NCBI RefSeq assembly: GCF_002999335.1 | Contig: NW_020312757.1 | Span: 100,044-164,043 of the forward strand | Direction: 5' to 3' | From: Cyclospora cayetanensis | Taxonomy: Eukaryota; Apicomplexa; Conoidasida; Eucoccidiorida; Eimeriidae | Length of the DNA stretch: 64,000 bases | Shown here: in pieces, positions 1,851 to 61,300 of the stretch | How the letters are laid out: each line of letters begins with the position of its first letter | How positions within the stretch are numbered: position 1 is the stretch's first letter | Notes under the pieces: generated by a model | The model's input: only the letters and a program-made list of their open reading frames with translations | Told to the model about the DNA's origin: nothing | The model's database searches: none | Made by a program: the position numbers and the translations under genes

Positions 1851-4800
1851 TTAGCACGCCACAGGGCTGCGCGCAGTGCCTGAATTTTGTTCCGATGCTG
1901 TCCGCCCTCCTAGAAAGACCTGCTGCGCTGTGTTTACGACTTCTATAGCTACACCAGCTGCTCCAGTGACGGACCTGCCCCCCTCAGTGTCTGCCCCGTA
2001 AGTCTGGTTGGACCCTGACGTTTCCCATGACCCTTGCAGCTGCTGCAGCACCGCTTCGAGCTTCCTGCGCATGTAGGCAAAGCCCAGGGTACCCGGAGTA
2101 GTTCCCTGATCTACCGCGTCCTCTTGCACCCCGAGTGTCTCTGCTAGGCGCTGCAGGCACCCCAAGTCATTTATGACTATCTGCAGCCACGCGCCAGTCA
2201 ACGCACCCACATGGGCCCCACCCACTGGTTTGCCCCTCGGACCAGGAGCCCCTGAAGCTTCATCGTCAGGCTTCTGCTCTGCAGGAGACTCCGAAGCCTG
2301 TTGGAGACAGCTCAGCAATAGCCGTCCGTAACAACCGGCAAAGGACTGCAGCAGTAAAGTCACCCAGGAGGAACCTTGCTGCAGCAACACAACAAACCTT
2401 ACAAAGGACGAAAGCCGCGCCTACAGCAGCAAGCTGCTTCTCTCCTTGGCACGCAGCTACTTTGCTAGACCTCGGTTTTTACACGCACAACAAAAGAAGA
2501 GCATGCGCACACATGGACAAAAACCAGAGGAGACCATATCGCCTCAACAGGCGCAAGAAGTTGCGTGAGAAGACACAGGGATAATGAGGCGTTGCCTCTC
2601 GGTTTGTCTCTTCCAACTATCTTCATTCGATCCCAGTCCTAGTCCTTTGAATTGTCTCTCTGTCCCTGTACACCCCTCAGTACCCCGTGCTCCTCTTCCT
2701 TTCTCTGTGCTATTCTTACATCAGAGGGAGGCGATGAGTCTTCAAGCAGTGGCAGGAGTGTCAGCATGTACTCCCCAACAGCAGTGACGGCTGTGGAGGG
2801 GCTCGCTGCCCCTACCCCCGTCGTCTTCTCGTCGCCTTGGAAGCAGGCACTGGCATCACTGCTGCCCACAGCGTCGCTGCTCCCGCCGCTAGCAGCACCA
2901 CCTCCTGCTGGAGCTGATGCCGCTCCTGCAGCAAGGGCGTCACTGTAGCAAGTCTGCAGGAACAACTCAATGGGTGTGCAGCAACAGCTCACAACCAGCT
3001 CTTGCGATGCTGCAGTGAGGGCTGCGTGGGTACCATAAGACGTCGGCAGCAACTCCTCGGGACTGGGTTCTCCCCGCGAGCCAGAAAGGTTTCCCTGTGC
3101 TGCAAGCACAGCGGCGGCAGAAGGAGCCTCCAGGAAGAAGCCAGGCCTGTGGACACAGAGGGCAAGCAGGGCGCAAACCAGTGTACGCTGTCCATCTCCA
3201 ACTGTACCCGCCAGAGGGTTCGCCACCAACGACGCTGGAAGGCGGGCATCTCAGGTGCAGCCTCACTGCCTCTTCATTAAGCTCCACATATAATCGGGGA
3301 AGAAAATGGACTCTCAGGCAGAGAGGGGGAGCCTGTCACGCACCGTTCCATTAGAGCCTTTATGCAGAGACTCAGTCTGGTAGGTCTTCTAGACATAGGC
3401 GACAGATGGTCTTTCAAAAATGTGCCAACCTGAAGCAGCACCAGGTCATAAGCAGCGGCGCCAACACTTCGGTAACAGCAGAAACAGGGGTGCAGGCGAT
3501 GCAGTAGCAGAAGGATTGGGGAGGCCCACACACCTCATGAAGTTTATCGACAAATGAGGTCATGAGGCAGTGCAGCTGGAGGCAGGCTGAAAAGAGGGCC
3601 GAATCCCAAGGAATGGAATCCAAAGGGGAGCCTAGAAGTCGACCCCGCTGCTGCTGTTGCAGCTGCTGTTCAGACTGAAAAAAAGGCACAAAGACTTCCT
3701 TCGCTTCCTATATGCAAGCCATTACCTCCTCACTTCAAAGACACTCGTCTCCTTTTCCTCTAGAGAGAGAGAGCGTAAAAGAGCAAGAGAAAGAAAGAGA
3801 GTACGTGCACATTTGGATGTGTGATATGGGTCCTTCTTTGACCGGAAGATTCACCGTATGGCCTCGTAGTGACACGCCGAAAGCCCGGAGCTCTTAGGGG
3901 ACTATTTAAGCGCCTTTACTTTTTAAAACACCACTAAGGTACCCCAATGTCCCTCCTTAACACTTAGGAGCCGCGTTTGGGAGTGCCCGTGAGATTTTGG
4001 TGCGAGTGTGGCTCACCTTGAGCGCAACGGTGTGGTGGAAAGTGTTGATGCGGGGGCTAAGGGCATTGAGTGTCTCTACAAGTGCAGCATCTGCTGCTGC
4101 AACAATAAAGGGCGCTCCGGCTGCTCTGCCGCCTCCCCCGCATACAGGGACGAGGGACTCCAAGAGGCGGCTCACAGCTGCTTGAATCTCCTCTTCCATC
4201 TGCACTACTGCCTGAAGGGAAGCAGGAGCGTTGGTAGCAGCAAACGCACTGGTTTGCTAAAAAGATACCCTCACTCAAGGCAGCGCGGGGTAGCAGTGCA
4301 TCTGTGCAGAGAGATGGACTACGGCGCTGGGTTTTTGGCTACGGTCGAGATACAGGCAGCGCCGGCCCTTGCAGCAGCGGGGACAGCTGGATTGACTCTC
4401 AGTGCGAAGACAGAGGGATGTGTGGGATACGTGCCTGAGCGGGGGCTAGACGCTTTGCTGTTGCATGGGGGTGGGATTCTGCGGCAGGTGACAGACGGCG
4501 CGAGATACCAGCCCCATAGATCGAGAGGAGGGAAGGGGGAAGGAATTCAACCGAGCTGCAAAACTGCGAACATGCCACCACAGGCAACAAGACGTTCGAA
4601 CAAATTGCACAGAAAAGGAAATACGGAAGACAGAAGCAGGCACGAGCACGCTGAAACCGACAGACAGCTTTAGCAGGAGAGAGCGTTGCCGTCTCCGCTG
4701 CTGCTGCAGTTGCACTGTTCGCTAGCATGCGGAGAACCAGCAGTGGCCAAGCCACCACAAGAGGGGCAGGCGCGGAAGAGAAAGGAGACATACTTCGATC

Positions 4801-8661: not shown

Positions 8662-11600
8662 TCTGAGGTCCTTCTCTGCTGCAACACCGCTCCCCCATAT
8701 TTATACATTAGGTTTATTGCAGAAGCTGATAGTCAATCTCCAAAAAAGACGAACGCCTGCCGAATTTTCCCAACACCAGGGCCCCCCTCCCCAGAGTCCC
8801 GTGCAGGCGGGTATCCGCGGCTCGTGCCTACAAGACTCATTTCATGTTATGAACGGCCTTTTTTTCCACAGAGCTCGCCGATTTAAGACGATCCCTTAAT
8901 TGCCCTCGTTCCCTCGACCTACCAACAAAGAGGGACCATGCGCACCGAGGCAGCGAGGTGCCCAGACTGCTCCTGCGGCACACAGTCTTAAGGCTTCACC
9001 GTTCGCGTGTAGAGACAGCTGAGGTGCTTGACCCTCTTGCTTCAGTAGCATAACAAGAGGCCTTCTGTAAGGCGAGTGGGAAAACGCTTTCCCCTCCCCT
9101 CTCTCCCCCTTCGCTGGGGAGGCTCGGGCTTCCAACGTCGTGCCTGTAGGCCGTGGAGACTCATTGTGCAGAAATTGCGCGCTAGCGGGCTTACTGATGC
9201 CTTTACACGCCTGTGCAAAGCTGCCCGTACATAGCTTTCGCAGCCCTTTGCCCCTCCACAGGTTTGGAAGTCCCTGCGGCACCACAGGAAACCGTTAAGC
9301 GGCTTCTTTCCCCTATGTCTTAAAGTGACGCCTTGCAGGAACAGTTTCGGTCCGATTAAGGCGCCTTTACTTGATATGCTGCTTTCTGGCTCCCTACATT
9401 CCTTTAAAGAGCTCTCCACACTGAACTCAATCCTCGCATTTGGTCCCGTGCAAGTTGTCCCACTCTCAGTTCATGAGCATCATCTTATTGCTTGGATATC
9501 CTCTCTCATCAAAGTCAAGAATTAGCGACACTCCGCTCTGCCCTGAAGTGAGTTATTCATCCTTGTGTGATGGATTTGGATGCGCTTTCTCATTGCTGTT
9601 GCTTGCCTCCGAATTTTTGCTGGTTAGGGGGAGCTTCTATCCTTTTGCGATGGGGTTCATATCGCCCCCTTCAGGTAGCATGCCTGCAGAAACTCCTCAT
9701 AGAGCCCTTTTACGCGGGGGGTTGGAGGAGCACTGCGCTATTCCTAACATGGTTTTCTATTATCACGAGATTGCACACACGTGGTGCTTCGCTTCCCTCT
9801 TGTCTTGCACGCATGAAGGTCACCCATCTGAGAAAAATCCCTTTTTCCACATGTATCACTACAGGAGAACGGAACTAAAATGCAAGCATGCATGCACACA
9901 TCTATGCTCTGGCACGTTGATGTATATGTATGGGAGTGAATGAAGCTGTTTTGTCGGCTAAAGCGGATAGATGCTTCACAACGATGCGTAATTGTGAGTC
10001 TGTGTAGCAGCTTTTGGCTGCTATTCTCTGTGTTCTTTCCGGCTGCTTGTAATGTTCTGGGGTCTGTCGATGTGTGAATTCAAAAAAGGAAGGGCCCTAT
10101 CGGCTGCCTGCGTACACTGCTCATCTTAACGCCATCGGAAATGAAAGCTTATGCAAATTCCCAAGGAGAGACACTGTCCACATGTGGAGATGAACAGCGA
10201 TTTACGGACCATAAGGCTAGTGGCAACGTTTCAAAGGAAATGATGTGGACATCTCATGGTCTGCTGCTACAAGTGCATCAAGGGTCAGTGTGGCTGCAAC
10301 TAGCTTGTAGCTACTGGAGGGGGATGTGCAACGCCCCACTGAATGTCTCCGTTGCGAGGCGCTTAATTCCTGAAGCGATGCAAACTTAGTAGGAAGTTAC
10401 TAATTGCCATAAAAAAGCGCTTGGTCCTCCCCTTGCTCGTGCCCTGAAACCTGTAAGATGAGGGGAAAGGGACAGCTGGGAGCGCGGGCTGCTACACCCT
10501 GTAAGCACAACGTGCATCATAGCTACTTTTCTACGTAACATGCAGCGTACACACACATTCGTTTCCTTGTATTAAGCTAAAAGCATCTTGCAGTAAGCAA
10601 GATATGCGAACATTTGAACTGGCTAGTTAAATCTTCACTAATTCTTGGTTAAATGTAGCCAGTGAAGTCGAAACTGGCTAAGTGTAGCTTGCCATCCACA
10701 GGGTGCGGCGCAAACGTCTGCTGCTGCATCACCTATACAACCCACCACTGTAGGGGTCTCATTACTGTTATCGTTGGCGCTGTTTGTGCTGTAACTGAAT
10801 GCTTTTGTTCCTACGGTAAACTTTTAGCTTGAATGGCTGTACCTAAGTGTAAGCAAGAGAAGGGGGGCTCCGGGCGCGATAACAAGGAAGAGAATGAGAG
10901 AAAGTGGCAGTCTTCCTGACATTTCGAGATCCTGTGGCAGCAGTGGCTGCAAGAACCCTTATGGGTGTGCTTTTATAGCTCAGTGTGCTGATGGACACTC
11001 TTCGGCTGCTGCTGCGTGGATCCTTCAGTATTACAACTCGCTGGGTTGCAGGTGGAGTGTGTAGGGTAGTGGGTGTCTTATTCTTGCTTTTATTCTGCGT
11101 AGGACCCTCGGATGCTGTTCAGGTATTGCCTGTTGGCAGCTTGCCAGAGGATTGCTATGCCCGTGGTGATGCCCATGTGTTGGGCTCCTTTAGCTTTTCC
11201 GCCTTTAGATGTGGAGTATTTACACCTTCATGCGCCTCTTTGTGGCTTCAGCCTTCTTCGAGCAAGTGTTTGGTTGGCAAAAATGCTTTGATTCACTCAT
11301 TACACCGACTGGTCAACGAGCCCTCTCGTCGCGGGCACTGAAGTGTACGGACACCCTATCACGCGAACAAGTAGGATGAGTCTGAGCAGAGCTGCGCCTC
11401 TTCTTCACATATGAGTGGTTATGACTCTCTCCGAATAGGAGCGAGTGTGTGGAAATACAGTGAAGGTCGCAGGGCCCCTATTTCTTGGCCCCTCGGTATG
11501 TACGCTTCCCGTTGTATTCGGCCGAACCTCCGCATAAGGGCAAGGAATGGGGGCCTAGCTGGGCAATTTGTTTTGTTGGGAGTGAGTTTGTCAGAGCCAG

Positions 11601-24900: not shown

Positions 24901-26988
24901 CAGCTGATCTACGAACGCGGAGACATGAGCTTGTTGAGCCACGACTTCGAGATCTGCTAGGGTTTTGGCTTCAGGGCAACCCAGGCGGATGTTCTCTTCA
25001 ATCTAAGAGTGGACCCCACAAACCACACATGCACACATGTACGACCTGACGCCTTCATTACACGGCCTACAACAAATCCGTCCTGCGAGGTGTGCTGCGA
25101 TCGATCAGACCTACAAGAGGAAGGCTCCGAGAGCCTCGCAGCCACAACGGCCACCTCGTACACCCTGACTGACGAGGCCATCGGCATCGAAAATGATAGA
25201 GGAAGAAAGCATGCGCGCACAAAAGCCCTCTTCTCTAACATTGGGGAGCAAGGCAACCAAAGAAGGGAACAGAAATTGCGAACGAATTGACAGCCCTACT
25301 CAGACATAGCTCACAGTTGTAGAGAAGAGTCGAGGCTCTTGCATGACCACCCCGAGGCGCGACCGATACCATCGCGTATTCAGGCTCGTCAGATCCCTGC
25401 AGCTCCACAGGACAGACCAATGTGGACCCTCTGTCTTCAATCTAAAAAGGAAGGAAAGGTGGGCTGCCTTCCCCTAGAGGGAAGCAGGAAGCAAAAGCTC
25501 AAGAGGAAGGAGCCCTCTCATGCAGCTGTTGAGAAGCGAGGGTTACTTCGTTGCCACTCAGGTTGGGGGGTTGGGGGGTGGGCTGCTCGTCTGTATGTGT
25601 GCATGCAGCAGCTGTGCGTTCCCTCACCGTCCAGCAATTGAAATTTTCCCTTCGACGGGGTCATAGATACGCTGAGTGAGTTGCAGGATAGTTGATTTGC
25701 CACAGCCGGAGGGGCCAACAAACGCGACGGACTTCCCTGCTGGGATTCTTAGCGAAAAGTTTTTCAAAATGACGGCCCCTGGTCTCGACGGATAGGAGAA
25801 AGTGACGGAATCGAACACGATATCGCCGTCCAGAGCCACGTCCTTGTCTCCTGTGGGGTCTGTTGGGTCGATCGCTGAGGGCTCCTCAATGACTTCGTAT
25901 ATCGTCTCCGCAGATTTCACGGCCTTCATGAGCAGCGATATGTTCTCTGCTATGTTGCCTAGTGTGAAGGAAGCCATGAGGAGACAGACGGAAATCACAA
26001 ATGCCGACCCACCCTCGAACTCTGGCCTCGGCCACATCGAGGGGGGCTGCTGGAAGATGGCTTCGCCACCTGGTGGGAGACTCGCGATTATGTCTTCCAT
26101 GCCTCTTGCTACTTTGCCCCCGCTCAGATAGAAAACAAGCGCAAACATTGCAAAGACGGATGAGATGAGGCCTCCTATGCCCAGACCGGAGAGGAAGCCC
26201 CCCCAAATGCCGGCCTTCTCTGCCTCTCTGTTGTGGTGCGTGTATCTCTCGATAGCTACATTCTCCCCTCCAAAAGCAACAACAGTCCTCATACTGCTGA
26301 AGGTCTCCGTGGCTACAGATCCCGCCTCCTCCAGCGCTTTGTTCACCTTGGTCGAGGTTGTGCGCATTGCCCATCCAAGAACTGCTCCAGAGAAGGCCGC
26401 TGGCAAGAGACCGACTAGCGAGCACAGAGTGATGGACCAGCAGCTCATGAAGGCGATAACTATGGACCCAATAATAAGCACTACGTTCGAGGGAATTGCC
26501 ACGAGCTTCATGCCAATACCATCCCGCACGGATGCCAAACAAACATCCAGGCGCGCAGACAAGGAGGCAGCATCGTTCGTGTCGTACCAACTCATAGACT
26601 GAGACAGCACAGAATCCACGTACCGGCAACGCATGCGCGCCGTTACACGATCTGCACATATCTCCATGCACATACATGCAATTGCCTGGAGCACCAAAGT
26701 TACGCCCCCAGCGATAGCCATCTCCTTCACCGTGCCGCTCACATCCATGGTGGTATGTAGGTTGTTTATTGTGGACCCAAACGACCGCATGAAGTAAGGC
26801 AACATGCTGCCTGCGGCGGCCGCAAACAGGAAACTAATGCATAGAAGGAACAGCTCAAAATTGCTGGCCTCCTTAAACGGCAGGAAGACGCTGCCCCGCT
26901 TCAAGGCATCGGCGAATGACGTCGGAGCGATTCCCCTTTTGGGGCCCCCTTTTGGGGGACTCACAAGAGCGGCTTTTTCGGATGACAT
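21987..26988 (-). CDS. Full-length ABCB/MDR-type ABC transporter (P-glycoprotein family), four exons
   Basis: ABCB full transporters use ATP to move lipids, drugs or other amphipaths across membranes. Exons (minus): 26988-25628, 25396-25315, 25002-22870 and 22424-21987. All have GT/AG borders and compatible phase, giving 1,337 aa, close to the usual 1,250-1,400. Order: TMD1 (about 30-370); NBD1 with Walker [10 protein letters not shown] near 425, Q-loop VVMQEP, signature LSGGQKQR near 529, Walker [13 protein letters not shown] and H-loop AHRLTT; TMD2 (about 710-1010); NBD2 with Walker [10 protein letters not shown] near 1104, [13 protein letters not shown] near 1225, [12 protein letters not shown] and AHRLST. 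Both ATP sites look intact. Two insertions stand out: a Lys-rich SSKKKKEDS in TMD2, and about 18 residues ([15 protein letters not shown]...) between Walker A and the Q-loop of NBD2. The substrate is unknown. The start is the first ATG of exon 1, preceded by a 21-bp triplicate in the 5' flank. Confidence 0.95.
25559..25584. repeat. G-rich tract in ABC intron 1
   Basis: Plus strand shows GGTTGGGGGGTTGGGGGG followed by TGGGC. These are three or four G-runs separated by TT or T, a pattern able to form a G-quadruplex. On the transcribed (minus) sense it is a C-rich tract in the first intron of the transporter, just downstream of the exon 1 donor. Confidence 0.7.
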
Positions 26989-28040
26989 ATTGTCGCTCCT
27001 TCCTCTATATTTGTCGCTCCTTCCTCTATATTTGTCGCTCCTTCCTCTATATTTGCGTGTCTCTTTGTGGCTTCGTGTGGGTCTCGGATCTCGTGCCCTC
27101 CGTTACGGCTTTAGGCACCGAAGGCCTTTTCTGCCAAAAAACAGGCTAAATAGCTCGATATATAGAGCGAAAATCGATTAACAGGATGGGAAGCACGGCT
27201 TCCCAGATCCCCGAATTGATCTGCCAGCAGCCACGGGGCAGTGTTCTGCAGTAGAGAAGAGTGACCCAAGGGCCATTAACCGCTATGCGAAAAGCATAGT
27301 GGCGAGAAACACCAACGAATCACACTGTCCAGATGGGAAGCGATACAAAAGTACGTGCGAGTCGACCCAGAAAGAGATCCAGTGCTGCTCTAGCAGGCCG
27401 CCTGCCCCGCGAACTGATAGCCTGTCCCGGCTCACGAAAATGAAAAGAGCCAGACTCCCGACAAAACCGCCACCCTCTACGTGGTCGTGAGTTAAGTTCG
27501 AACAGACTTCGTGCTCAGTCGCTCCGAAAGGAAGGCGAGAGCTCCGCAGGGGCTGAGCCACGGGGGACGCTCCAGCAAGAATTGGTCGGGTGGGGCCTGA
27601 TGGGACGGGCTGTGTGCTGGATGCTCCGAGGGTCCTCCTGGTTGCAGAGAAATTCGATACGTACAATTGGCGTATTTAATCGCTAGGTGTGGCTTTATAT
27701 TGTTTCTTGATGCAGCAATAGTGCTTGGGGCCACAAAAAACCGTAGTGCTCCACGGCGTCCTATAGGAGCGATGCGAACATTCACAGCACGGTACCTGCA
27801 GAGGGCGCAGCTACACTTCCGTTCTTTGTATCTCACCAATTCTACCCGACTGAAATTAGTCGAGAATACTAAAAATGGCCTGTCTTTTCTTGAATTCTCC
27901 TTAGTGCCGACTCGCACTCGCTTGATACATATTTAGACAGCAGGGTTTCTGCCGCAGCGTTAGATACTTTTGTGAGCAGCTAGCTGAGAGTGCTTAAAGT
28001 GCAAAGAAGGTGTGCTACCACGCATCCTGGCATGTGTGTC
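26989..28040. other. Upstream flank of the ABC gene, no gene recognised
   Basis: The region holds the 21-bp triplicate and a small perfect hairpin at 27188-27204 (GGGAAGC, 3-base loop, GCTTCCC). The overlapping minus-strand frames between 27283 and 27917 show no family motif and no codon-like periodicity. Promoter function is expected by position only. Confidence 0.45.
26995..27055. repeat. Three tandem copies of a 21-bp unit upstream of the ABC gene
   Basis: The unit TCGCTCCTTCCTCTATATTTG is repeated three times with essentially no divergence, ending in TTTGCG. It lies 7-70 bp upstream of the transporter ATG, so it is 5' UTR or core promoter. On the gene's sense it reads AAATATAGAGGAAGGAGCGA, an A/T block plus a purine tract. 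Identity between copies suggests recent duplication or constraint. Confidence 0.9.
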
Positions 28041-28049
28041 TGCTCTCAT

Positions 28050-28460
28050 ACCGGAACTCTGGGAGGCGCGGGCAGGGGGAAGAGGAAGCCCTCGAGTAAA
28101 ACCACTCTATCACCCTCTACCAAGTTTGCTTTCAGTCTAAGGTTCAGTGTCTCCCTAAGGAGGCGTTAAAGAAAAGGTTTCAGATCAGAAATGGCTTGAT
28201 TCAGACGGTTTCCGCTATCTCACTGGCCGCGGATGCAGTAGAATGTCAAGTTTTCCTAAAACAGTGTCCTATTTTTCAACCAAATCATGTGGGAATTCAC
28301 TTGTTTGGTTTTTGTCGGCAGGAGCCTGAAGAAAATAACCCTGTGCAGAAGAAAGTTGGTGGCCTCACTCCCCGCTTCTCTCATGGCTCAGGAGCATCCC
28401 CTCCCACTGGTGCCACAGCAGTGTTATCACGGATGGGGAAATGAAGTTCGCTTCTGCTTC
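28050..28460 (+). mobile_element. Degenerate retroelement leader, third copy
   Basis: This stretch is collinear with the leaders of the two elements at 33.4-33.7 kb (plus) and 38.5-38.2 kb (minus). Shared landmarks in the same order are GGCAGGGGGAAGAGG, GTGTCTCCCTAAGGAG, CCGCGGATGCAGT and AGAAGAAAGTTGGTGGC. Spacing is conserved to within a few bases and point divergence is high. No intact ORF follows; sequence to about 29.3 kb may be further decayed element body. Confidence 0.55.
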
Positions 28461-30100
28461 CTGGTGCCATAGTGACCTGCCTACACATTGAGCATAATCT
28501 GACCCCTGCGACGCACTCTGAAGCCACAAGCTCCTTGGCGCATTCAAAAACATTTCATCGGCAAACTAATCCTGCTTTTCTACGAGCTGTGAAGCTCAAG
28601 GCCGACTTCTAAATATCCTTTTCCCCTAAACCATTGAGTCAGAAAAGGAAGAGTGGGGAAGGCTAGTTCATGCAATACAATCTAGGCCGTTAAGTTGTGA
28701 AATAACCACAATAAAGGCTATGCACACAACCGCTTGCGTCTTGCCGTATCCGTATTCCAGTGTAGCCTTTTTCGGCCTATCCACTCACAAAATACTAGAG
28801 CATTGGTGCTGTTCGCTGCATGAGATACCAGACAGCGAAAGTCCTTGTGCAGCTTTGTGGGTCCATGCGTTTGGGGCTAAATGGCCGAGCGTGATGGCTT
28901 TATTTAATCTCTTTCTCTCTTATGTCGTGGACCCCAGACACGTGCATACTGTTTCACATTTGTAGAGTGATATGTCTGAGCTCGAAGAGAAAACGTGGCC
29001 TCGGCAGACTCAAGGCTGCTAGAGGGTGGAGCGTTTCTTCTTCAGACCTCATGATGGCAGTGTACTCGCCACTTCTGCACAAGCTCAGCTGTTCGATCTA
29101 CAGGATTCGGCAGGAGTTAAGTATCAGGGGATGGGTTTAAAAGGCAGCAGCTCTACATTCAGGGTGCTCGCCTTCGTCGCGCTTTTCGGCCTAAAGATTT
29201 GTGGCCAGTGCGGCCTTCTTGTGCCCCCGAGACAAAACCATACACACAAGTAATGTTCTAACTCTAAACTATATATCGGCAAAAGACGACACCATTAAAG
29301 CCTATTTGAGCGTGCTGCAATTGTAATCGGCAAGCCATGAAAGGGATCAGCATGACAATCCTGCTGAGGATACCGGCACTGAAAAAGTTGCAATTGCAGG
29401 CGGTCAAAGCACGCGGTTTTAACCGGCAGTGCGAATTAGCACCCTCAAGGAACAGCATAAAAATTAGCCTGTTGCTACGGCTGGCAGTAAAGCTATTTTG
29501 CCTCTAACAACAAGTCTATGGTACCCCTGTGGTGGCACAGTGCATCACGCCTCTACATGCTCCCAAAGGCCCGCCGCTGTTGTCTCTGCCGCTTCAACTG
29601 CTCCAACCGTATGCGGGTAAGACGCCTCTCGTCCTCTTCACAAAACTGCAGTACAGCCGCAGCGTCAATTAAACAGAAACTACCAAGCGTTACACTATAC
29701 AAGAGGCATATGTGATATGGTTTACGGGCTGATGGGCTACGGCGTGTGGGCAGCCATTGTTGCCAAACTTTTTCCTCCTTCTTGTGTTAATGTGCTGCTG
29801 CCAGCCTCACCAGCAATCGCGTCTGGAGTCCCAGGATCTTGAGTGAATCCGAGATATCTGCACGGCCATATTTCCAACAATTAGGCCCACAGCTTTCAAA
29901 CCCTCATGCCTACGCGGTAAATCGATCATCGAAGGGAGCTAGGGAGTGGGATCTGAATACCAGGTGGCTGCTGCGCACCTGCTCGTGTGTTTTGCCTGAA
30001 CGACCGACAGCACAGCAAAGCACCTTCAGGCAGCCTCAATCATCAAGGAGAGTCCTAGCCATAGGCGCGGGCAGACATGAGAGGCAATCGTAGTTGCAGC
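28461..30100. other. Gene-poor, possible decayed retroelement body
   Basis: Only short open frames are present. The plus-strand frame near 29026-29253 contains a readable segment (SAQAQLFDLQDSAG) and may be retroelement debris following the leader copy at 28.05 kb, but I do not recognise it. The 3' flank of the rhomboid gene (minus) must lie at the right end. Confidence 0.35.
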
Positions 30101-32438: not shown

Positions 32439-33330
32439 CGCGAGGGCCCATTACCCCAGGACGAACCAGCAAAGCGGCGAGTTGCAGTCTCTACGTCTTC
32501 CACAGCAACTAAGTGACAAAAAATATTGGAAAGGGTGTTCTCTTGAACGTTAGTTAAGCCACACTGGCAATGATTGCAGCGGGGCTATTTCACGGACCCC
32601 AAAAGCCCACAACTGGGAGGCGTAGGTCTGGGGTGACCTATCCATACGGTGCAAGGGAATTAATTTGCCTGCGTGTTACTCTTGTGGCATGTTAATTCGT
32701 TCACATGGCTTGCGTCATTAACCCATAGGGGCGTAACATAATGGCCATCGTCACTCGAAGAGCTGGCCGTGGTGGAAGGGACCAAACAGTTAGGGTGTCG
32801 GCGCTTTGAACTCCAATTGTATATTGAGGAGGAAGGCATTGCTGCACCTGAAATCGCTACTTCATCAGGCCGCTATTTGAAGTTAATCGATGAGGGAAGC
32901 GGGGGTCCTTTCCAGCAGCATGGCTGTTCTTCTCTGCGCGCCCTTGAGAATGCAGAGTAAAACTGAACTGGAAGGGGGAAATCAGTAGGAAACAATGAGT
33001 AAATAAGGCTCGCATGCTGGTCATGCGGTGCTGCTCTTGGCGTTTTTGTACTTTGTCTCCACCGACCTTTGCCTCCATACTTCTCTCCGCATGGCTCCCT
33101 TTGTGTGCACTCCCACTCTAGCGGGTAAAGCTATGCTTCAACACTTTTTAATATACTAGAAATATTTTTGGATGCGGAATCAGCAAATACATTGAATCGT
33201 TGGCTTGTCTGTTGGTTTGGTTTTTTCTTGAAGATTAGCGTCAGCTCAATACAACATGCCGCAATGATGAGTGCATGCGCACTAGGTGCTGTATACAATT
33301 AGTTGGGCTGCTTGTAGTGCTTAGAGGGTG
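32439..33330. other. Upstream flank of the rhomboid gene, no gene recognised
   Basis: About 0.9 kb of AT-balanced sequence with few triplet repeats, lying between the rhomboid start and the first retroelement leader. No open frame here shows a recognisable family. Promoter function is expected from position. Confidence 0.45.
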
Positions 33331-33339
33331 CAGCAACAT

Positions 33340-36300
33340 GGACCTTAGCTGTCCTCATTCCCTCATGTCAGAAGCCTCAAGGGCACGTGCAGGGGAAGGA
33401 GGGAATACATCTGCGACACACTGCATGTCTATCTACTAAAATTGTATCAATTCTGAAGCTAAGTATCTCCCAATGGATACCTGAGATACAATGTTGCACC
33501 TCGTAGCACTGCATGGTTTGATGCAGCTGTTCCCCGCCGACCGCGGATGCAGTGAGATGTTAGCTTTCCCTCCAACAGTTCCCTAGTTTCCATCAAATCA
33601 TTTGATAACTAAATTATCTGACTTATTTGTGCAACAGTCTGGAGGGAATGTTCTCTTCAGATGGAAGTTGATGGCGCAGCGCCTAATCGGGTGGCAGAGC
33701 CCGGGTTGCATTCTAACATGAGCGTAGCAGCTCCACAGCTCATAGAAAAGCATCATTATTTAGCCGCTTAAATGTGTGTGAATGTGTCTATGAGTTTATG
33801 GCAGTCAAAAAGGTGTGCTGGTTGAAAGGGTGGTCGGCTACTCAAAGATTTTATGCGCCGGCGGCGAGATACCTCTCTTTGCAGCCACAGGTAAAGAGAA
33901 ACAAGTGCTCTTTGCGACATTTCCGCAAAAGGACGCCCTTCAGTATTGGCTTTATTGATATGAGGCATTCTTTTGCCTGCATTGTTTAATACCATTTGAG
34001 TCTTCATACAAGTCCTGACTCATCGGTCTTTGCCGAGATCTGCTCAACAACAAGTTTCGGGAAATTTGAGAAAGCATAAGCACGGGAAAATACCAGTACA
34101 TGATGCTGAGAAGTAAAACACTTCGGTTTGCAAAAGCTACGATGTACATAAACCGCTGCTATATCGAATATTTTCGTCGGGTGTAGCCCAAATTTCATAT
34201 CAGTTGGTCGCAGGCTTGGCAGCCATCCAACGATTAACAGCGGACCAGTGAGGCTTCCACAAATGCTGGACTACTCGAGGTTTCAGGAACAATTCAGCAC
34301 AAATTATGCTTCTCTGGCTGAGGAGAAAGAAGGCAATGAGGATTTAGAACTGATCGATGTTGGCGCTCTGAGAGCCGGCCAGCCTTAGGGAACCCGTGCT
34401 CCTAAGCAGCATCATAGAGCTCCCCAACAATGCAGCCAATTCTAATGTGTAAAGGCAAGTCATATGATTTGGAGCTGAAAGAGGCATGCAAAAGACCAAT
34501 TAAGTTGAACAATTGGACACGGACGTACGCTACTTGATGAGCAAAGGTGCATTAGGGAAAGAGCAGGCCTCTAACGCAGGCCGCGGCACAGTAAAGGGGG
34601 CCACAGAGGACAGAGCCTTAGTTGAACACCATCAACGAATCACCTTTGTGCTGGTACAAGCTCACATGCTCACACATCGGTTGCGCTACTTGCCACTGGA
34701 TGTGAAGTGGATATTCTTTCTAATGGTATGATCCAGAAATGCAGGCCGCTATTCACGCGGTGGAGCAGTGCCGAAGATTCAGGCTTGTTGTCAGGTGACA
34801 CAACAAGGAGATTGAAAAGGCTATGGTAACTAAAATGGCGCTTTTCATCGAAGTTTTATGGTATTAGCACGGATCAAAACCTGTGTGTAGGGCCCGTGCA
34901 CCATGACGCAGTACTAGATGTGCCAGGGGTGATCCAGAAGGAAGCTCCCATGGGACCACGGGTGCGTGCTGGGGCATTTCTTGTGCCTAGAGACGTTTGC
35001 GAAAAGCGCTTCTTGGTCTGTTCAGCAACGCCTATTTTATGTATGCCGTAGGGTGTAGAGTCGATGGCTCAGCAAGGTGAGGCCAGGCCGTCGTGTGAGC
35101 AGATCAACAGAGCAGTACGAGAAGACGGTTTTCAGCAGTTATTCCTCCCAGCTGGTTCTACTAAAGATCTAGTACTAGCAAACTCAATTGCCTATCCAGC
35201 CTACGAAACGCAGGAATGAGCAGCTACCAAGCAACACTTCGCAGATGTGCTAAAATGTGACTTGCCAACAGGCTGGCCTCCTGGTGATCGTCCAGCGCAC
35301 CGTGAGAAGCAGACCCCCATATCAGCACCAAATTATGCTCCACTGTATTATGAGCTGCCACAACATAACAAGGCTACTTAGCTGCAAGCGGAAGGTCTGT
35401 TGAAAACGGGCACAGTTCAGGTTGACCAGCGCCTGTGAGCAGAACCCAGTGTTGGCGACAGATGGCACAGCTTCGTTAATATTCAAGCTCTGAAAAAATT
35501 GCAACGAAACAGAAGTTTACGATGCCTCATATAGGCATATTACTTGACAAACCGTCGGAATCTACAATATACTCCACATTCGAAGTACACCAACGCCTCC
35601 TTACAACCATCCGTTCACCCGGATGGCAGACGCACAAGAGAGCTTCACAATCGCACTCGCAAACAAAAGCATACCTATGTGGCGTTTGGGCTTGTTAATA
35701 CCCCAGCTGAACTGTAGCATTAAGTATATTGGGGTTGTTGTGAGTCATTCAAGAAGACTGGATGACTGTTTATATTGTCAGCGACTCCGTATTCAGCCAA
35801 ACCTTCCAGGCACACTAAAAGCACGTTCTGCTTGTGCTTCAGCCAGTGCGGGGCAATCAGCGGTATGTAAAGGCATAAAAGGATTCGTTACCCTTCAAGA
35901 CGCTTGTGTTTCTAGAATTCTATGTTTGGGTTGCCAGAGATAAAGCATATCCGGCAACGATTAAAGCAATCAGGGCCTGGTCTCTATCTTTACGCACTTC
36001 CAAAGACTTTGAGAACTTCTATGGGCTGGCATCCAATTACCTGGCATCCATTCCTGGGTTTACACGGAACGCTGCTTTTTTGCCTGCTTTACATTCTAAA
36101 ACGCAGTCTGTGATCTGGACCTATGAGGCAGGTGCCGCGCCGAGGACAGTTGTCATCCGCCTTCCAACTACTCGTTATTAGCGTTGCCAGATTATGAGCC
36201 CCATTTCGTATCGACAGCCAATGCCGGTGACATCAGTGGGTGCAACTGTCTCTCCACAGGCTACAGGCTCTCCATGGCACTTACTTATTGCTTGTTATTC

Positions 36301-36990
36301 TATCGCTCTGCCGACGCCGAGCAGCGGAATCCAGTGCAGGAAAGTGAACGCTGTGATGGGAGGGGCGTAAAAAATGCCAGCACTATTTATATGGGCATTT
36401 TTTAAGCGTCCGGAAGTGCCATAAGCTTTAAGTCACCTTAGGAAAAGTGTACAGACTATTGATAATCCTAGATGTGTTTGCTGGAGTGGGTGCATCCTCC
36501 TTCATAACATTACAGTACAGTACATGAAGGGCATCATCAGCGTAGCCATAGACGCGCGCTCGCAACATCCTAATGATTTACTGCTGTGCAGCACAGCCGC
36601 TGCTGCTCGTGATAATTTAAAGTTTTATTCAAATCGCTTGGATCCTATGCCTTCGAAATCCATGCATCCGCTATCTGGGCGAAACAGAAATGGTGGCAAC
36701 ATGGCGCACTACCATGCTGAGGATGGCATGCTACGGTATAAAAGCGTAAGCTCTGCCACTTGTACAATGAGGCTGCTTTTCTAAATGTCGCTTTGCTCAA
36801 AGCGCAGATATATTGTTCCTTATGACCAAGGTGGGAATCACATCATGTTGGAGAATGTCCTACAGATTTTTGGTGGCCTGGGTTGCGTCCCCCTGGCTGC
36901 GGGGCGCACTTCCACGCCCAGCTTATCAGAAACCACAGCCGCCCAACAGTTGTCAACCAGACAATTTGCAAATTCTCTTGGTTCGTGAAA
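33340..36990 (+). mobile_element. Degenerate Ty3/gypsy-type LTR retroelement, plus-strand copy
   Basis: The leader (33375-33690) matches the minus-strand copy at 38.5-38.2 kb. The body at 34245-34735 matches the inverted copy at 37745-37205. Polymerase traces follow in order. At 35241-35420 there is a pre-palm block with LPTGWPPGD then a stop, like the L-P-x-x-x-P entry of gypsy reverse transcriptases. At 35700-35760 there is KYIGVVVSHSR, like the F-L-G-x-x-V-S motif. At 35930-36100 there is a connection block KAYPATIKAIRAW...FYGLASNY. A tail at 36520-36988 may be RNase H or the integrase zinc region. The element is broken by many stops and frame changes, so it cannot be active. Boundaries and target-site duplication were not resolved. 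Confidence 0.72.
34245..34735 (+). repeat. Left arm of an inverted retroelement repeat
   Basis: The reverse complement of 37205-37745 is recognisably the same sequence. Shared stretches include AATGCTGGACTACTCGA, GTCATATGATTTGGAGCTG, GGCATGCAAA, GACCAATTAA, TTGAACAA and AGGGAAAGAGCAGGC. Roughly three quarters of positions agree by eye, with small indels. This is the gag-pol junction region of the two oppositely oriented element copies. Confidence 0.85.
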
Positions 36991-37039
36991 GGATTTGAAC
37001 TTGTCTGACTACGAACTATAGTGCTGACCTTTTGGAGGT

Positions 37040-38490
37040 GAAGGGGTAAGATCGCATCTATTTCGTTGTCGACATGTTAACAAATATACCCATTTCATCT
37101 CTTACCCCATATGTCTTACTGCCAGAAAGTCTCAGAATTGAAACACATGTCTGGAAGTCCCGCAGATCACAGATTCTCTGATAGTTTCATTGCAAAGAGA
37201 GAAAAGGATTTCTAAGCATTCTCTTCCGATAAAAGGTCCACTTCACAACCAGTGGCAACTGGCGCCAACGATCCTTGGCCTATAACATGAGCGGCTATGA
37301 GCACAAAATTGACAGGGGCGACTTCTTCACTGTGCTGCAACTTGCGTTGGAAGCCTGCTCTTTCCCTAGTGCGCCTTCTTTGCTCATCTAGTAGCACACT
37401 TCCGCTGATCCTTGTCCACTTGTTCAAGTTAATTGGTCGTTTGCATGCCTTCGCAGCTCCAAATCATATGACATGATTTCCCGCAGTAGAACTCGCTGCA
37501 CTGCTGGGGAGCTCTCCAGGGGTGCTTAGGAGCACGGATTCTGTGTAGCTTTTGTTTCGTCCACCTTGGGACGTACGGCAAGGCCGGCTTTCATAGCCCC
37601 AACGTCGATCGGTTCTGAATCCTGACTGCATTTTTCCTTTTTAGCCGAAGACGCATAATTCGTGTTGAATTCCTCCCAAAGTTTCGAGTAGTCCAGCATT
37701 TATGAAAGCCTCACTGGTCGTCTGCTTAATCGCCTTTTGGTTATTTTACTCTGCGAGCAATTTAAACTTTTGGGCTTGATTTAAACCTCTGATAAGGGAG
37801 CAGTTCGTCTACATTGGGGCTTGCAACCAAAGTTTTATAGATCCGCGGGCTCTGGCTTTTTCATTTCCCTCAAAGCTTGCTCCTGAGCTGATCTTGGCAA
37901 AGGCCAATAAGTCAGGAGTTGTATGAAGACTTGAACCGAAGCAGAATATCCAGGCAGCCAAAAATGTTCGAGAGCCGTAAAACTACTATGGAGGTCTTCC
38001 TTTAGCAGATATGCAGTAAGTAGCACTCGCGTTTCTTTAGCTAAGAGCACACAGATAACTAGATGTCCAAACAGGCTAATCGATCCATTTTTTACGCGCT
38101 GTGGAGCCGCTGCCTTTACCTTAGTTTGCAAGCCGGACTCTGCCCCCCCAGCGGGCACTGCGCCACTAACTTCCATCTGCAAAGGATCTTTCTCCCAAAT
38201 GTTGGCAAGGAAAATCAATTTGTTGAGTAATTAAATGACTCGAACCGAGAAAGCTGTTTTTGGGAAAGCTGACAGCCCAGTGCATGCACAATCAGTGGTT
38301 GTGTGAGGGGTAGCTGTGCTGCATCGCGCACTGCTACAAGCCTTAGCGCTTCAGCTACTGTCTCCGTAAGGAGACACTAGTGCCAGAATCGATAGGAACG
38401 ATAGAAAGTCATGTTGTGTGTCCCAAATAAGCTCCCTTCTTCCCCTGCCTGCGCCTCGGGCTCTTGACACGAGGGGAGAAGGTCAGCTGG
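37040..38490 (-). mobile_element. Degenerate Ty3/gypsy-type retroelement, minus-strand 5' portion
   Basis: Reading minus from 38490, the leader (38480-38220) has the same landmarks as the copy at 33.4 kb, ending in CAGATGGAAGTTAGTGGCGC. An open frame of 127 codons (38218-37835) then follows in the expected Gag position. The 37745-37205 block matches the plus-strand copy. Sequence stops matching near 37040, so the pol part is missing on this strand. The copy was truncated, or the pol now assigned to the plus copy was split by rearrangement. Confidence 0.68.
37835..38218 (-). pseudogene. Gag-like fragment of the inverted retroelement
   Basis: A 127-codon frame directly after the element leader. 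It contains a helical C-terminal part (SFTALEHFWLPGYSASVQVF...), compatible with a Gag capsid region, but I see no CCHC zinc knuckle. Downstream the frame breaks at several stops before the block shared with the plus copy. Assignment rests on position within the element rather than on a motif. Confidence 0.4.
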
Positions 38491-41400
38491 GCTGCGCGTT
38501 GATGTATGCTCCAGACACTACCCGCATGCCCCAGCCCAGTGCATATAGTATCTAGAGCTCATGCACACAACATTAGGTCTTGAGCATCAGGATCACGCTG
38601 CAGCAAGTAACATGTACCGAAAAACATACCAAGCAATTAGTTCTTTTCTACTTCTTAGAATTATTCAGTTAAGGTTGCTAAAAGCGCTTTACTGTAGCAC
38701 AATCAACTACACTTCCTTGACACGTTTGCTCTGTTCCCATCGGCTTTTGCTTCTGACTCTGCCTCTTTCCCCTTTGCTAGAGAGACGTCAATTTGGTCTA
38801 CACTGTTTCGGCGCTAACCTTCATGCGCATAACCCTAGATGACTGCTAGTACAACAAATGCAGCAGCAACATTTGACACCAGAGCGCGTGGAATTGCCGC
38901 ATGGGCGGCAGAGCTGCGCCTTGCACTTTTTACCCCCTGGACTCAACCAAGAAGTGGTCATGAAGTAATTATTTGGATTGCTGCTCGTTCATCTTTTTTA
39001 TTGCAGACTAGCGCGTGTTCAATACCAAACGAATCAATGTTCTGTGCGCTAGATGATGTGTGCCACTAGCCGTGAAGGCTCGGTGTGCTAAGACGGTACA
39101 TCAGCGAGATCCCTATCTATCCCTTTCCCCTCATCTGTGAACCCTGGAAAGCGCCGCCAGGAAAAGGTCGCAGCTTTTATGGAAGGGCATTCAATAACTT
39201 TCCACTATGCTTGTACTGAAATCGGAGCCAAGTCACCCCCTTCGGGGCCTGTAGGTAGAGTGTTACGAGTCGTTACTCTCACTACCTACATCTGCTAGTA
39301 CACCTTTGAGCAAAGATCCAGACACGTAGCGTCATTTTACGTCCATGAATGCCGCTGCCAGAGATAGGTTGGTCATTTATCTTTCTTGCGCCCACGAACC
39401 CGTCCGCAGTCTACTTGTATCTGGTCGAGCAACATATATGCACTTTCTACAGAACTAGTACGTTTTCACCGAAAAATCGGTAAATAACTGACTCGCTGAT
39501 TTGGCAGTTCTTATCATGCGTTGCAATGAAGGATCAACTCAATACTAGGATGGGGGAAAGCTGTGCGCCCACACCCTAGGTTGGAATGCTCGACCGGGTG
39601 CCAACCCTCAGAGTGCTCGGAGAGTGGCAACATGCTGGCTAACTGACTTTTTTCTTTCAAGCAGGAACTTAATGGGGTGTTGAGTACAAGAAGGAGGGCT
39701 CTTTGAAGTTAACAAACCCTTCGCCATAAACATTTGATATGGATTTGGGGCTAAAGGCTTTCATACGGAGACCGTAGAAAGGGGCTCTACGCCATCCAAA
39801 GGAATCACACAGTATTCCAGACACTACGGTCTGTTGAGCTTGCCAAATTTACCTTCTTCTTGACGAGGTACCCCTGCCCTCGCAATAAGTCCGGATGATA
39901 CAATTTGGCTTCATGACATACTGATATCGTACTGAGTCGCTAGTAGTATTATACCTTGTGACCGCCTTAGGCAGCGATTCGCTTAGCGCTATAGTTCCCT
40001 GCAGTAGAGTCTAGCTTGGCGTGCTTCTCCATATCCTGAGGTTTGCTGACTTGTCATCGCAAGCCCGGCAGCAGCAGCATCAACAGCCGCAGAAGCGGAA
40101 ACAAATTACAGCGCCAAAAGACTGCCAGGTAGGCCTTAGCTATTCTGGGGGTCGCAAGAGGAAAACCGCTCGCGAGCAATTCCCATGTCTTTTATTGAGG
40201 GTTGTGCTCCTCATGTGCAGGTACCCTTAGGTGGGCCTGCAGTACTCGGCAATGGGCCTTGCGTTTTTTACAAATATCGCAATAGAATTCAAGTCTAAAT
40301 AAAGAACGACGATGGTTTCACTCGTCATCTCGCGTGAGAGATAGGTATTTTAGCCAGGGAGCCCTCCTGAAGAAAGGCACCCACTCGACCCACTGCGACT
40401 CACACTCGCTTCTGCCTTAGTTGACTCAAATGCTGTCAAACACTAGCAAGAGGTAATTAAACCACCTGGAACGGATTACACAGTTTTAAGGGTGCAGGTA
40501 TCATAGGCGATATCCCGCATCTACGACTTCAGGGCCCCCCTGTTGAAGTCCCCTCCGTCAGCTATAGACTGTGAAAAGCAGCGTCTCAAACAAAGCGCTG
40601 GGGGCCCTCCTAAGGGCCCCCTTCAATTTCCTTTTCCCATATGATATATCTCGTCTATATGCGACCATGGATGCAAGAATTTGATGTTTGGGATGACGGC
40701 TCCATGCCTGTGATGTCTGGCCGTCATAGGTCTTTCCCCCCAAGCCCCCTGTATCCCAGCCCTACTCCCGGCCACTCGTAGAGGCAATCTTCAGCCGTTG
40801 GCTCCGTTGATATGCCACGATATTTGCCTTGTTGGACTGTTGTCTGACACTTTAGCTAGAAACTTGGGTACGAGGGGTTGTGGACCCGCAGCAAGCCGCC
40901 GCGGGGAGCAAGGGCAAATGAGCAAGTGGCCTGACCAGTGGTGCAGCGACAAGTTGAGGCAACGAAAGCATCGGCAGCATCTAGAGGGGTTTCTAAACGG
41001 GTTTCAAAGTTACTTTCCATTCTCCTTTGAAACATTATGCAAACCACTTTAAATTGCTGTCTTCCTTCATGCACAGCATTCCGATGCAGTCTGCCTCCTT
41101 GCCTCTACATCCAGCCTCACAGCACTTCGTGCGGGGGAGGCCGAACGGTAATTGGGTTTATTTGGCGTATACCGGAAATTCCTTTCTACACGCACTTTGC
41201 TCCGCGGTACTGCGCTTACTGTGGAGGCTTCGAGACACAGGAAGGCTTGCATGCAAAGTGCAGGAGGCATCTACTGAGGTACTCTCCTGCCAGACCGCAC
41301 ACGATTCCCCTGCAGTTTCCGGCCACCCATGCATTGGAAACACAACATTCCTTTTCCCTACTTCCTTTTCAGATATGCCAAGAGGCTAGATGCTGACGCG

Positions 41401-58300: not shown

Positions 58301-61300
58301 CATATACATCTATGTCCAAGTAGGTAAGCGACAGCTTACCTACTTGGAAATCTAGCCTTTAACGCGTCTCTTCCCGGTTCTCAAGCTATGAGGGCTGAAT
58401 TAATGAAGCTTTTGCATGCGTTGCTCTTCCTTTTTTATTTTTCAGGCGAACGAAAGCGTCAGCAGCGGCCTTTGGCTCTCAGACTGCTTTTTGTATATCA
58501 CGCGCAACTGCCGTCTGCGCTGTTACTGCGGGTGCCGCATCCAAACTTTGCACACGCTGGAAGCTCGCGAGTTGCGAATTCTTGCCGTCATTCCCGAGCA
58601 AAATAGGATTTTCCTTATCAGCCCAAGCCACGCCCTCTACGTCTACTCTCTGAACCAAGCCTCCATTCAGTATCAGGCAAGTCAACGCATCATCCGCAAG
58701 AGACGCAGCAACGCAAACTCCAATTGCATTCTCAAGGAGGGGGCGAGAAAGGAGGGAGGAGGGAAGCCTCTTTCGTGCCTAGAGAAAAAGATGGAGCGAA
58801 GAGGTCTCCTCAGCAGAGAAGCTGCTGCTGCCGCCGTTGCACGAGTTTCTAAGGACAGTCTCACACTTGCATTTCCACGTGATACGCATGTAGACAGCGC
58901 TCTACAATTTAGGATTAAGTGTGGGGAAGAAGGGATATGGCTTGCATGCATGATCAGGTGGCAGTAGCCAGAGGCGACTTGGAGAGTGCCAAGGCAATAT
59001 TTCCTCAGCTTCCCGTTGAAGCATATGACGAAGCGGCTAGAGCGCTGCAAGCTCACGGGTAGGGAGAAGAGTCTTGTTCTATTTTCCATGTAGCTGGCAA
59101 AGTGTAGCTACCCCTTTTTCTCCCCTGCCAGCTCCCCCGTGCGTTTACGTTGGATCTCTCTTTCTCGCGTGGTGGAGTGGACGAAAGAAATCGACAGAAA
59201 CGAATTTCTTCATCCCCAGCTCAGTTCGCACAAGGCTTTCATGCTTTCCCATGCAGCACGCATCGTCTCGTATGTATCAATTGCTATCCTCCGCTTCTAA
59301 CGCCCTGCTGCCATGTGTATGTATGTATGTGTGTGCTATGTGTGTATGTATGTATGTATGTGTGTGCTATGTGTGTATGTATTTGTACTGTATATGTGTA
59401 CTGTATGTATATATGTGTATGTGTGTGTATGTATGCATGTGTGTGGATGTGTGTTTTGCTACTCGTTCCTTAGAAGGTCGTCTTGTGCGTGTTTTTTGTT
59501 GCTTGACTGCTGCAACGCGGTGGCATGCATCGAGCTTCGGTTTTTCAAATGTTTTTGTTGCTGCTGCTGCTGCTGCTGCTGCAGCTACGCCGAAGAGGCT
59601 TTGGAAGTTGCTCGGGATGAACAACTCCGCTTCGAGCTAGCGCTTGCTATTGGAGCCCTCTCTCTGGTGAGTGACTCCTTCCATCTGCTGTCTCCTGTTT
59701 TTTGCGGTTGACGCGTGCTGCAAGTGAAGGAAGGCTCGCCTTTACCCTGCAGCTGGCTGTGCACTTGCATGCGGTCTTTAACTTTCCACACATGCAACTC
59801 TCCCTTGCGATCCTGTGGAAACTGCTGCTGCTCTCGCAGTGTGCTGAGTTGATTCGGAGCAGCACCAGCGCTCCCGCAGTGCAGAGACAGCGATGGGCTG
59901 CCGTTGGCGATGCAGCCTTGCAGAAAGGATATTTTTCTCTCGCTGCAGCAGCCTTCTGGGTAGGCAGACGTCCATACCAAACACATCTCACTTCCCTTTG
60001 AGTTCTTCCGAGAGTATTTGCACTCGTCAGCATAAAAGAAAACCGTCCTTCCTTGCGCGGCATCACCTTCGTCGAAGCCCCTTCTCCATTCCTTCTCCTT
60101 TTTTTCCTCTCCTTTTTTTCCTATCCTTTTTTCCTCCTCTTTTTCCTCTGCTTCTCCTTCTTTCTCCTCCGTTTTTTTCTTCTCCTTCTCCTTTCTCCCC
60201 TCCTTCTCCTTCTTTCTCCTGCTTTTTTTCTTCCCCTTCTCCTCCTTTTTCTCCCTCCTTTCTCCTTCATTCTCCTCCATTTTTTCCCTCTCCTTTCTTC
60301 TTCTTTCCCCTCTCCTCCTTTCTCCCCTCCTGTCTCCTTCTTTCTCCTCTCCTTCTCCTTCCTTCTCCTTTTTCCCTCTCCTTCTTCTCGTTTCTTTCCT
60401 CCTGTCTCCTTCTTTCTCCTCCGTTTTTTCCTCTCCTTTATCCTTCTTTCTCCTCCTTTTTTTCCTCTTCTTCTCCTTCTTTCTCCTCCTTTTCTTTCCT
60501 CTCCTTTCTCCTTGTTTTTCCCTCTCCTTTCTCCTTCTTTCTCCTCCTTTTCTTTCCTCTCCTTTCTCCTTCTTTCTCCTCCTTTTCTTCCTCTCCTTCT
60601 CCTTCTTTCTCCTCCTTTTTTTCTCCCTCCTTTCTCCTTCTTTCTCCTCTCCTTCTCCTTTCTCCCCTCCTGTCTCCTTATTTCTCCTTCTTTCTCCTGT
60701 CCACCTCCTCCTTTCTCCCTTCCTTTCTCCCCCCCTCCTTTCTACCCCTTCCTTTCCCCCTTCCTTTCTCCCCTCTCCTTCTCCCCCTGCAGAACTGTGT
60801 GATGACAAAGTTCATGCTGCAGCAGCAGCAGCCGCGAGAGAGGAGTGTATACATCGTTGTCTGTGCCTTGCCTTCAGGAGTGCAAGGACTATCCTAGCCT
60901 GCTGTTGATGTACAGCAGCAGCGGCGATGTGGAGCATCTTCGCCAGCTCGGTGAAGCAGCAGCTGCAGCGCGACAGCAGCAAATCGCCTTCGTGTGCTTC
61001 CTGCTCACGCATCAGCTAGGTGATTGTGTGAAGCTGCTACTGACGGCGGGTAGAGCTCCCGAGGCTGCTCTCTTTGCTCGCACGTACTGCCCCTCCGCTA
61101 TCGAAGACGTCGTGAAGGCTTGGAGAGAGGCACGAACTGACGCGGCAGAGGCGACTGCTGCTGCTGCTGCTGCTGCAACGCATACCGACACAAAGACTTC
61201 CTCCAAGACAAACAAAGAAGGCGTCGAGCAGAAACGAGTAATTCTTGCCTTTGGGAAAGTAGCACAGTTTGCTGAGCGTGCTGTGCTTTGTTTGCGGGGA

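Follow-up and report, generated by a model that had tools for sequence, protein, structure and literature searches.

Facing remnants of a Ty3/gypsy-like retroelement family in Cyclospora cayetanensis share a bounded tract of raised identity that suggests gene conversion

Sex-chromosome palindromes, which carry genes, reportedly undergo gene conversion from one arm to the other. Gene conversion has also been reported in the long terminal repeat (LTR) pairs of plant LTR retrotransposons (PMC7251063), and Gypsy-like elements are on record for Eimeria and Cyclospora (PMC9141347, PMC4851813, PMC7564333). Coccidian retroelements have been described mainly as degenerate fragments, and no work on gene conversion in them was found among the titles listed by searches of an open-licence library. 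Here, we analyzed 64,000 nucleotides of Cyclospora cayetanensis (C376:100044-164043, in the 43.2-Mb genome of 392 contigs; referred to as the window), in which two decayed copies of one dispersed Ty3/gypsy-like family, designated A and B, face each other. There is nothing unusual about the elements themselves, and the novelty, a modest one, lies in the conversion tracts.

Inverted self-alignment of the window revealed two arms, A at 33,263-34,740 on the plus strand and B at 38,574-37,208 on the minus strand. Pairing involved 33,263-33,758 with 38,574-38,077 (E = 1.5e-47), 33,889-34,596 with 38,042-37,325 (E = 2.9e-86), and 34,640-34,740 with 37,312-37,208 (E = 2e-5). Global alignment of A with 20 shuffled B arms gave 38-44% identity, in comparison to 65% for the real outer arms and 79% for the inner tract. 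An earlier note, made from the letters of this DNA, had placed the leader and gag-pol junction of a retroelement on the plus strand (33.4-34.7 kb), facing a second set on the minus strand (38.5-37.2 kb). The inverted diagonal and an A-B identity above that of shuffled arms confirmed this arrangement. The same note spoke of a large decayed palindrome, which is correct for the inverted repeat but not for its geometry, since a spacer of ~2.5 kb, consisting of A's own polymerase region, separates the arms, and their similarity is strongly uneven. The bounded tract of high identity is a feature absent from that note.

Within this inner tract (limits in Table 1), identity varied between 0.77 and 0.81 with the alignment used, in contrast to ~65% in the remainder of the arms. 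The strongest segment detected by a scan of the arms showed an identity of 0.806 inside (360 columns) versus 0.648 outside, with a statistic of 16.1, whereas the maximum in 200 permutations was 11.1. Fisher's test gave a p value of 1.6e-8, uncorrected for the picking of the segment by the scan, for which the permutation test allows. When the arms were searched for their most similar 360 columns, A and B reached 0.806, in comparison to a mean of 0.610 (standard deviation, 0.019) and a maximum of 0.653 for 104 control pairs. In the tract region, other copy pairs had a mean identity of 0.578 and a maximum of 0.626 (n = 90), and unlinked copy pairs had a mean of 0.575 and a maximum of 0.624 (n = 135). 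Other copies are thus at background there, indicating that the region is not a conserved one. Searches of the genome with A and B returned each as the best match of the other (242 bits), the next match elsewhere scoring 69 bits in the case of A, for which 8 candidates were scored, and 75 bits in that of B, for which there were 12. Mismatches in the tract were distributed evenly over the three codon phases (28/121, 22/121, and 24/120; indels make the frame uncertain), and if the plus strand folded into a hairpin, 25 of the differences would still permit wobble pairing while 24 would not. Thus, neither coding nor hairpin constraint explains the tract, which is drifting neutrally as far as the codon-phase and wobble tests show.

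The window's own loci were excluded from the copy comparisons, except for the comparison of LTRs and of 135 unlinked pairs, which took in the window. Duplicates (L060, from the same place as L011; L028 and L029, from that of L057; L035, from that of L049) were retained in one of the comparisons that scored the tract but were removed from the LTR and unlinked-pair, scan, shuffle and outer-arm, truncation, and 360-column comparisons, L060 being the only one of them removed from the 90-pair region comparison. L074, the duplicate of L073, was also removed from the truncation, 360-column, and later outer-arm comparisons, and L072 and L075 were removed from the latter two.

Colinearity of copy A with other loci ends at ~37,171, and the first base of B is 37,208, which places their junction within 36 bp. 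Twenty-two other copies reach at least position 36,950, of which 18 hold at least 250 nucleotides beyond 37,171, and many of these continuations align mutually, up to ~1.2 kb. The 1.5 kb of the window that follow 37,171 matched just one such copy, L023, the continuation of which is likewise an inverted 5' end. The window therefore does not share the continuation of the other copies, indicating that A is missing both the remainder of the integrase and the 3' LTR. Copy B lost everything past the gag-position region. The junction bears out the suspicion, already voiced in the note, of an old rearrangement, and the polymerase traces are indeed confined to the plus strand, where polymerase-like sequence runs to ~37,171, B ending before any polymerase.

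The class of the element was established through other copies. Stop-free pieces of the window gave no Pfam match to reverse transcriptase, RNase H, or integrase in 19 scans (9 plus 10, one piece being scanned twice and two pieces originating from B), their sole match being HSP90 at chance level. RVT_1 was detected in L001 with 35.6 bits, above the Pfam cut-off, and in L002 and L003 with 24.0 and 23.9 bits, below it; DNA alignment placed the domain of all three loci in the same region of A. A reverse transcriptase profile at 35.2-36.2 kb, as anticipated in the note, is thus missing from the window's own stop-free pieces but is recovered there by projection from three copies. Of the 46 Integrase_H2C2 matches in the genome, 45 were above the cut-off, and alignment placed the domain in A from eight of nine loci, L077 having no alignment over it. 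Reverse transcriptase, as placed via other copies, lies upstream of the integrase zinc region in this family, an order that fits the Ty3/gypsy type proposed at the outset. The integrase core, PF00665 (rve), had no match at E ≤ 0.001 in the genome (one candidate scored), the copies being decayed and A ending within the integrase. LTR-like ends recur as solo matches at several loci, and both A and B are devoid of 3' ends. The region between the LTR-like end and pol of A presumably includes gag, judging from its position. A zinc-knuckle gag, suspected by eye, was rejected: the one stop-free CCHC pattern in the tested loci maps outside the element, although decay may have removed the motif. Of ten open frames from other copies analyzed with Pfam, two had a weak RVT_1 match and one a weak RT_RNaseH match, and there was one match to DUF5315 at chance level. 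A protein search with the 151-amino-acid open frame of L049, which carries a weak RVT_1, gave none of 50 scored candidates at E ≤ 0.01. No intact copy was met among the family loci seen. The label chromovirus-like gained no support, since no chromodomain match lies within 10 kb of any of the family matches listed; A is cut before the integrase C terminus. The genome holds eight chromodomain matches, five of them in open frames of at least 582 amino acids. Those in long open frames are at L082 to L085 (contigs C369, C73, and C223), and C73 alone carries three of the eight, no more than 30 kb apart.

These data probably reflect an old convergent arrangement of two copies followed by ectopic gene conversion of the inner tract. 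Two dead copies of one family came to lie convergent, A on the plus strand and B on the minus strand, and the intervening DNA (the integrase end and 3' LTR of A; the pol and 3' LTR of B) would have been lost, presumably by deletion, so that the remaining 5' parts faced each other. At a later time, one arm may have served as the template for repair of the other by conversion between inverted repeats, for example through synthesis-dependent strand annealing, so that ~360-400 bp of the inner arm would have been overwritten and their divergence reset, both arms drifting neutrally afterwards. The tract displays the features expected of a conversion tract, namely, an in-register stretch of raised identity that is bounded by paralogous flanks, is confined to this pair, and lies in a region that is not conserved. 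Conversion between facing arms explains its limits, register, partner specificity, and neutrality. Without correction, the arms differ by 0.206 within the tract and by 0.352 elsewhere, corresponding to Jukes-Cantor distances of 0.24 and 0.48. By these figures, the conversion would have about half the age of the divergence of the pair, which is a relative age, there being no clock for years.

A second, younger example was found on contig C326, where two H2C2 loci lie in opposite orientation, 9.4 kb apart. Positions 322,090-323,740 and 332,334-330,684 were 97.2% identical over 1,652 columns, whereas the outer arms, in register, were 64.5% (502 columns) and 60.2% (359 columns) identical. Searched against the genome, this tract found its partner with 2,766 bits, the next best-scoring match having 120 bits and 69% identity, with 40 of 74 candidates scored; among these, weaker matches of smaller length reached up to 82% over 71 bases. 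The control query L040 (2,613 bases) had no such partner, its best-scoring other match being 67% identical over 619 bases (40 of 157 scored). The re-matched tract is located on the spacer side in both pairs, and that of C326 runs to the end of the homology. Both C326 H2C2 matches carry two TAG stops each, presumably the same ones in both arms because of the 97% identity, which suggests copying after the death of the element. Jukes-Cantor distances were 0.03 for the tract and 0.48 for the outer arms, making this conversion recent and, by these figures, younger than that of the window. Duplication is disfavored for C326 because the outer arms have diverged yet remain in register.

Several observations weigh against gene conversion as the explanation. 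In the window, ~150 bp of homology beyond the tract on the spacer side are at background (0.598), the tract stopping short of the end of the homology, and one control pair of the 104, L011-L071, nearly equals the scan statistic (16.0), with a long weak difference of another kind. The outer arms of A and B are 0.648 identical versus a maximum of 0.621 to sampled copies (n = 15); with B as the query, no locus was available at a span of at least 600, and 10 loci at a span of at least 300 had a mean of 0.575 and a maximum of 0.608. The first outer piece of C326, when realigned, likewise reached 0.631, little above background (at most 0.600 in 22 loci and 0.624 in 29), so that in both pairs some of the similarity may stem from a shared origin or from a previous conversion. 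None of six oppositely oriented, linked LTR pairs at other loci (L013, L017, L025, L062, L064, and L068) rose above the unlinked maximum of 0.662, indicating that conversion is not universal. Recent direct duplications occur in family-bearing DNA (contigs C292 and C168), so duplication is active too. Finally, the control copies are an incomplete sample of the family, limited to the best candidates.

Template switching is normal in LTR retroelements, and it would likewise give bounded in-register patches. The later copy might accordingly have been born chimeric, reverse-transcribed from two packaged RNAs, with the tract derived from the lineage of A and the flanks from another. We consider this unlikely, since the lineage of A has no other close copy (for the 2,471-bp pol of A, the best-scoring of 25 other matches listed was 77% identical over ~160 bp), since chimeric birth offers no reason for both patches to sit in facing neighbors, and since the TAG stops of C326 suggest copying after death. 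To a similar degree, we doubt that inverted duplication of one insertion, whether segmental or by autointegration of one cDNA, accounts for the locus by itself. In the outer arms as well, A and B resemble each other more than they resemble any other sampled copy, as duplication would have it, but arms of equal age should be uniformly similar, whereas identities of 0.806 and 0.648 were observed and the permutation test disfavors uniformity. Beyond 33,263 and 38,574, no inverted alignment into the host flanks appeared among the 60 best rows, which leaves a segmental duplication including host flanks unsupported, and the outermost 170 aligned bases of A were only 0.40-0.51 identical to B. Inverted duplication might nonetheless have given rise to the pair in the first place, with conversion following.

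It is highly improbable that selection maintains the inner tract, whether for a coding function or for an RNA hairpin that yields double-stranded RNA. In favor, the longest exact inverted match is 19 bp, others being 13-18 bp; against this stand the even codon phases (with the same uncertainty of frame), the missing wobble bias, and the lack of conservation of the region in other copies. For E. tenella, a Dicer-like protein has been described, along with an Argonaute that is divergent (PMC9353057). Here, a six-frame search of the genome revealed no Piwi match, although a split or divergent gene, such as an Argonaute of the Eimeria type, might be missed, and the double-stranded transcripts envisaged in the note thus find no backing.

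Both orientations occurred within about 3 kb at 17 of 72 family loci, indicating that mixed orientation is frequent and that inverted order alone is ordinary. These loci, mostly of 3 kb, were chosen by match to A or B or by family domains; L077 was excluded since it has no match to A, and L011 and L060, which are one place, as well as the overlapping L028, L029, and L057, were kept in this count. Removal of direct neighbors by recombination, with inverted ones left in place, is a plausible reason for the mixture. Chance proximity of two members of one subfamily, with no later exchange and the tract as a statistical extreme, could therefore stand for the arrangement itself, but it is close to excluded for the tract, which lies ~10 standard deviations above the 104 control pairs and has a like pattern in a second pair.

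Table 1. Coordinates of the retroelement features in the window
Feature	Position	Strand	Basis
LTR-like 5' end of copy A	33117..33500, limits approximate	+	L013, L016, L018, L022, and L027 among loci matching solely here; limits are where such matches stop
Copy A leader and gag-position region	33500..34740	+	Colinear with other loci, e.g., L009, L028, L021; gag from position only
Inner high-identity tract, A side	34232..34592	+	Scan statistic; best 360-column window
Copy A decayed pol region, right end truncated	34740..37171	+	Colinearity with other loci to 37,171
Reverse transcriptase region, copy A	35523..35872	+	RVT_1 of L001, L002, and L003 placed by DNA alignment, 3/3
Integrase H2C2 zinc region, copy A	36775..36944	+	Integrase_H2C2 placed here from 8/9 loci tested
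Junction of truncated A and truncated B	37172..37207	.	Family homology: last plus base 37,171, first minus base 37,208
Copy B leader and gag-position region	37208..38340	-	Inverted alignment to A 34,740-33,500
Inner high-identity tract, B side	37325..37732	-	79.4% to A, 364 columns; best other locus 62.9% (n = 27)
LTR-like 5' end of copy B	38340..38712, limits approximate	-	L056 match extends to 38,712; A-B identity 0.62-0.64
LTR-like copy C	38899..39275	+	Matches L014, L028, and L027; 0.52-0.61 to the LTR of A

Copy C was considered as the 3' LTR of A, a proposal left unsupported by its identity to the LTR of A, which is within background. Other family sequences in the window are a small facing pair of leader and LTR fragments at 27,991-28,363 (+) and 28,523-28,596 (-), the minus piece being 78% identical over 74 bp to the leader of A, and a decayed LTR-like fragment at 10,345-10,578 (-), 62% identical to A. 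Elsewhere in the genome, a direct repeat of 3,066 bp (99.97% identity; positions 1-3066 versus 5234-8299 of L057, G000:C292:2400-12197) includes family fragments and is a recent duplication or an assembly artefact, and L073 and L074 (G000:C168, about 27.5 and 46.5 kb) are copies in direct orientation, 18.9 kb apart, with 98.9% identity throughout the 3.1 kb compared, the duplication extending past that stretch. The window also contains an ABC-transporter exon at 25,624-27,102 (-), whose named Eimeria matches are 54-64% identical, the top named one being from Eimeria intestinalis (64%; among 120 of 1,209 matches) and the best match of all being 66% identical. At 61,764-62,283, a 67-bp unit is repeated in tandem (7.7 copies with 93% matches), a long impure pyrimidine tract of the TCCTTC type is found at 60,090-60,775, and the GC and AT skews of 60,001-61,000 are -0.63 and -0.71, respectively.

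Apart from the tract, the locus is ordinary transposon debris. The tract, with a known partner, limits, and relative age, indicates that dead retroelement remnants continued to participate in recombination, and dating of such elements must allow for divergence that varies patchwise. More tentatively, and with considerable doubt, facing dead retroelements of this coccidian might repeatedly be re-matched on the spacer side from the opposite arm, in which case inverted transposon pairs would be long-lived sites of recombination and the age of a remnant could not be read from its divergence.

Like the arms of sex-chromosome palindromes, which are reportedly kept similar by conversion, A and B are inverted; unlike those gene-bearing palindromes, they have no intact gene seen in the arms, and a short tract alone has been re-matched. 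The Gypsy-like elements of Eimeria and Cyclospora resemble the present family in their likely host lineage and in their highly diverged, fragmented copies; the published passages on them describe content and coverage and mention neither facing pairs nor conversion tracts (PMC9141347, PMC4851813, PMC7564333). The account of the Cyclospora elements in one of these sources reports no reverse transcriptase domain (PMC4851813), whereas one locus passes the RVT_1 cut-off here. The plant LTR pairs offer a parallel in their patches of raised identity between homologous retroelement sequences, which were attributed to gene conversion; as described there, they belong to single elements (PMC7251063), whereas the tract reported here is internal and is shared by two dead coccidian copies that are separate from, and inverted relative to, each other.

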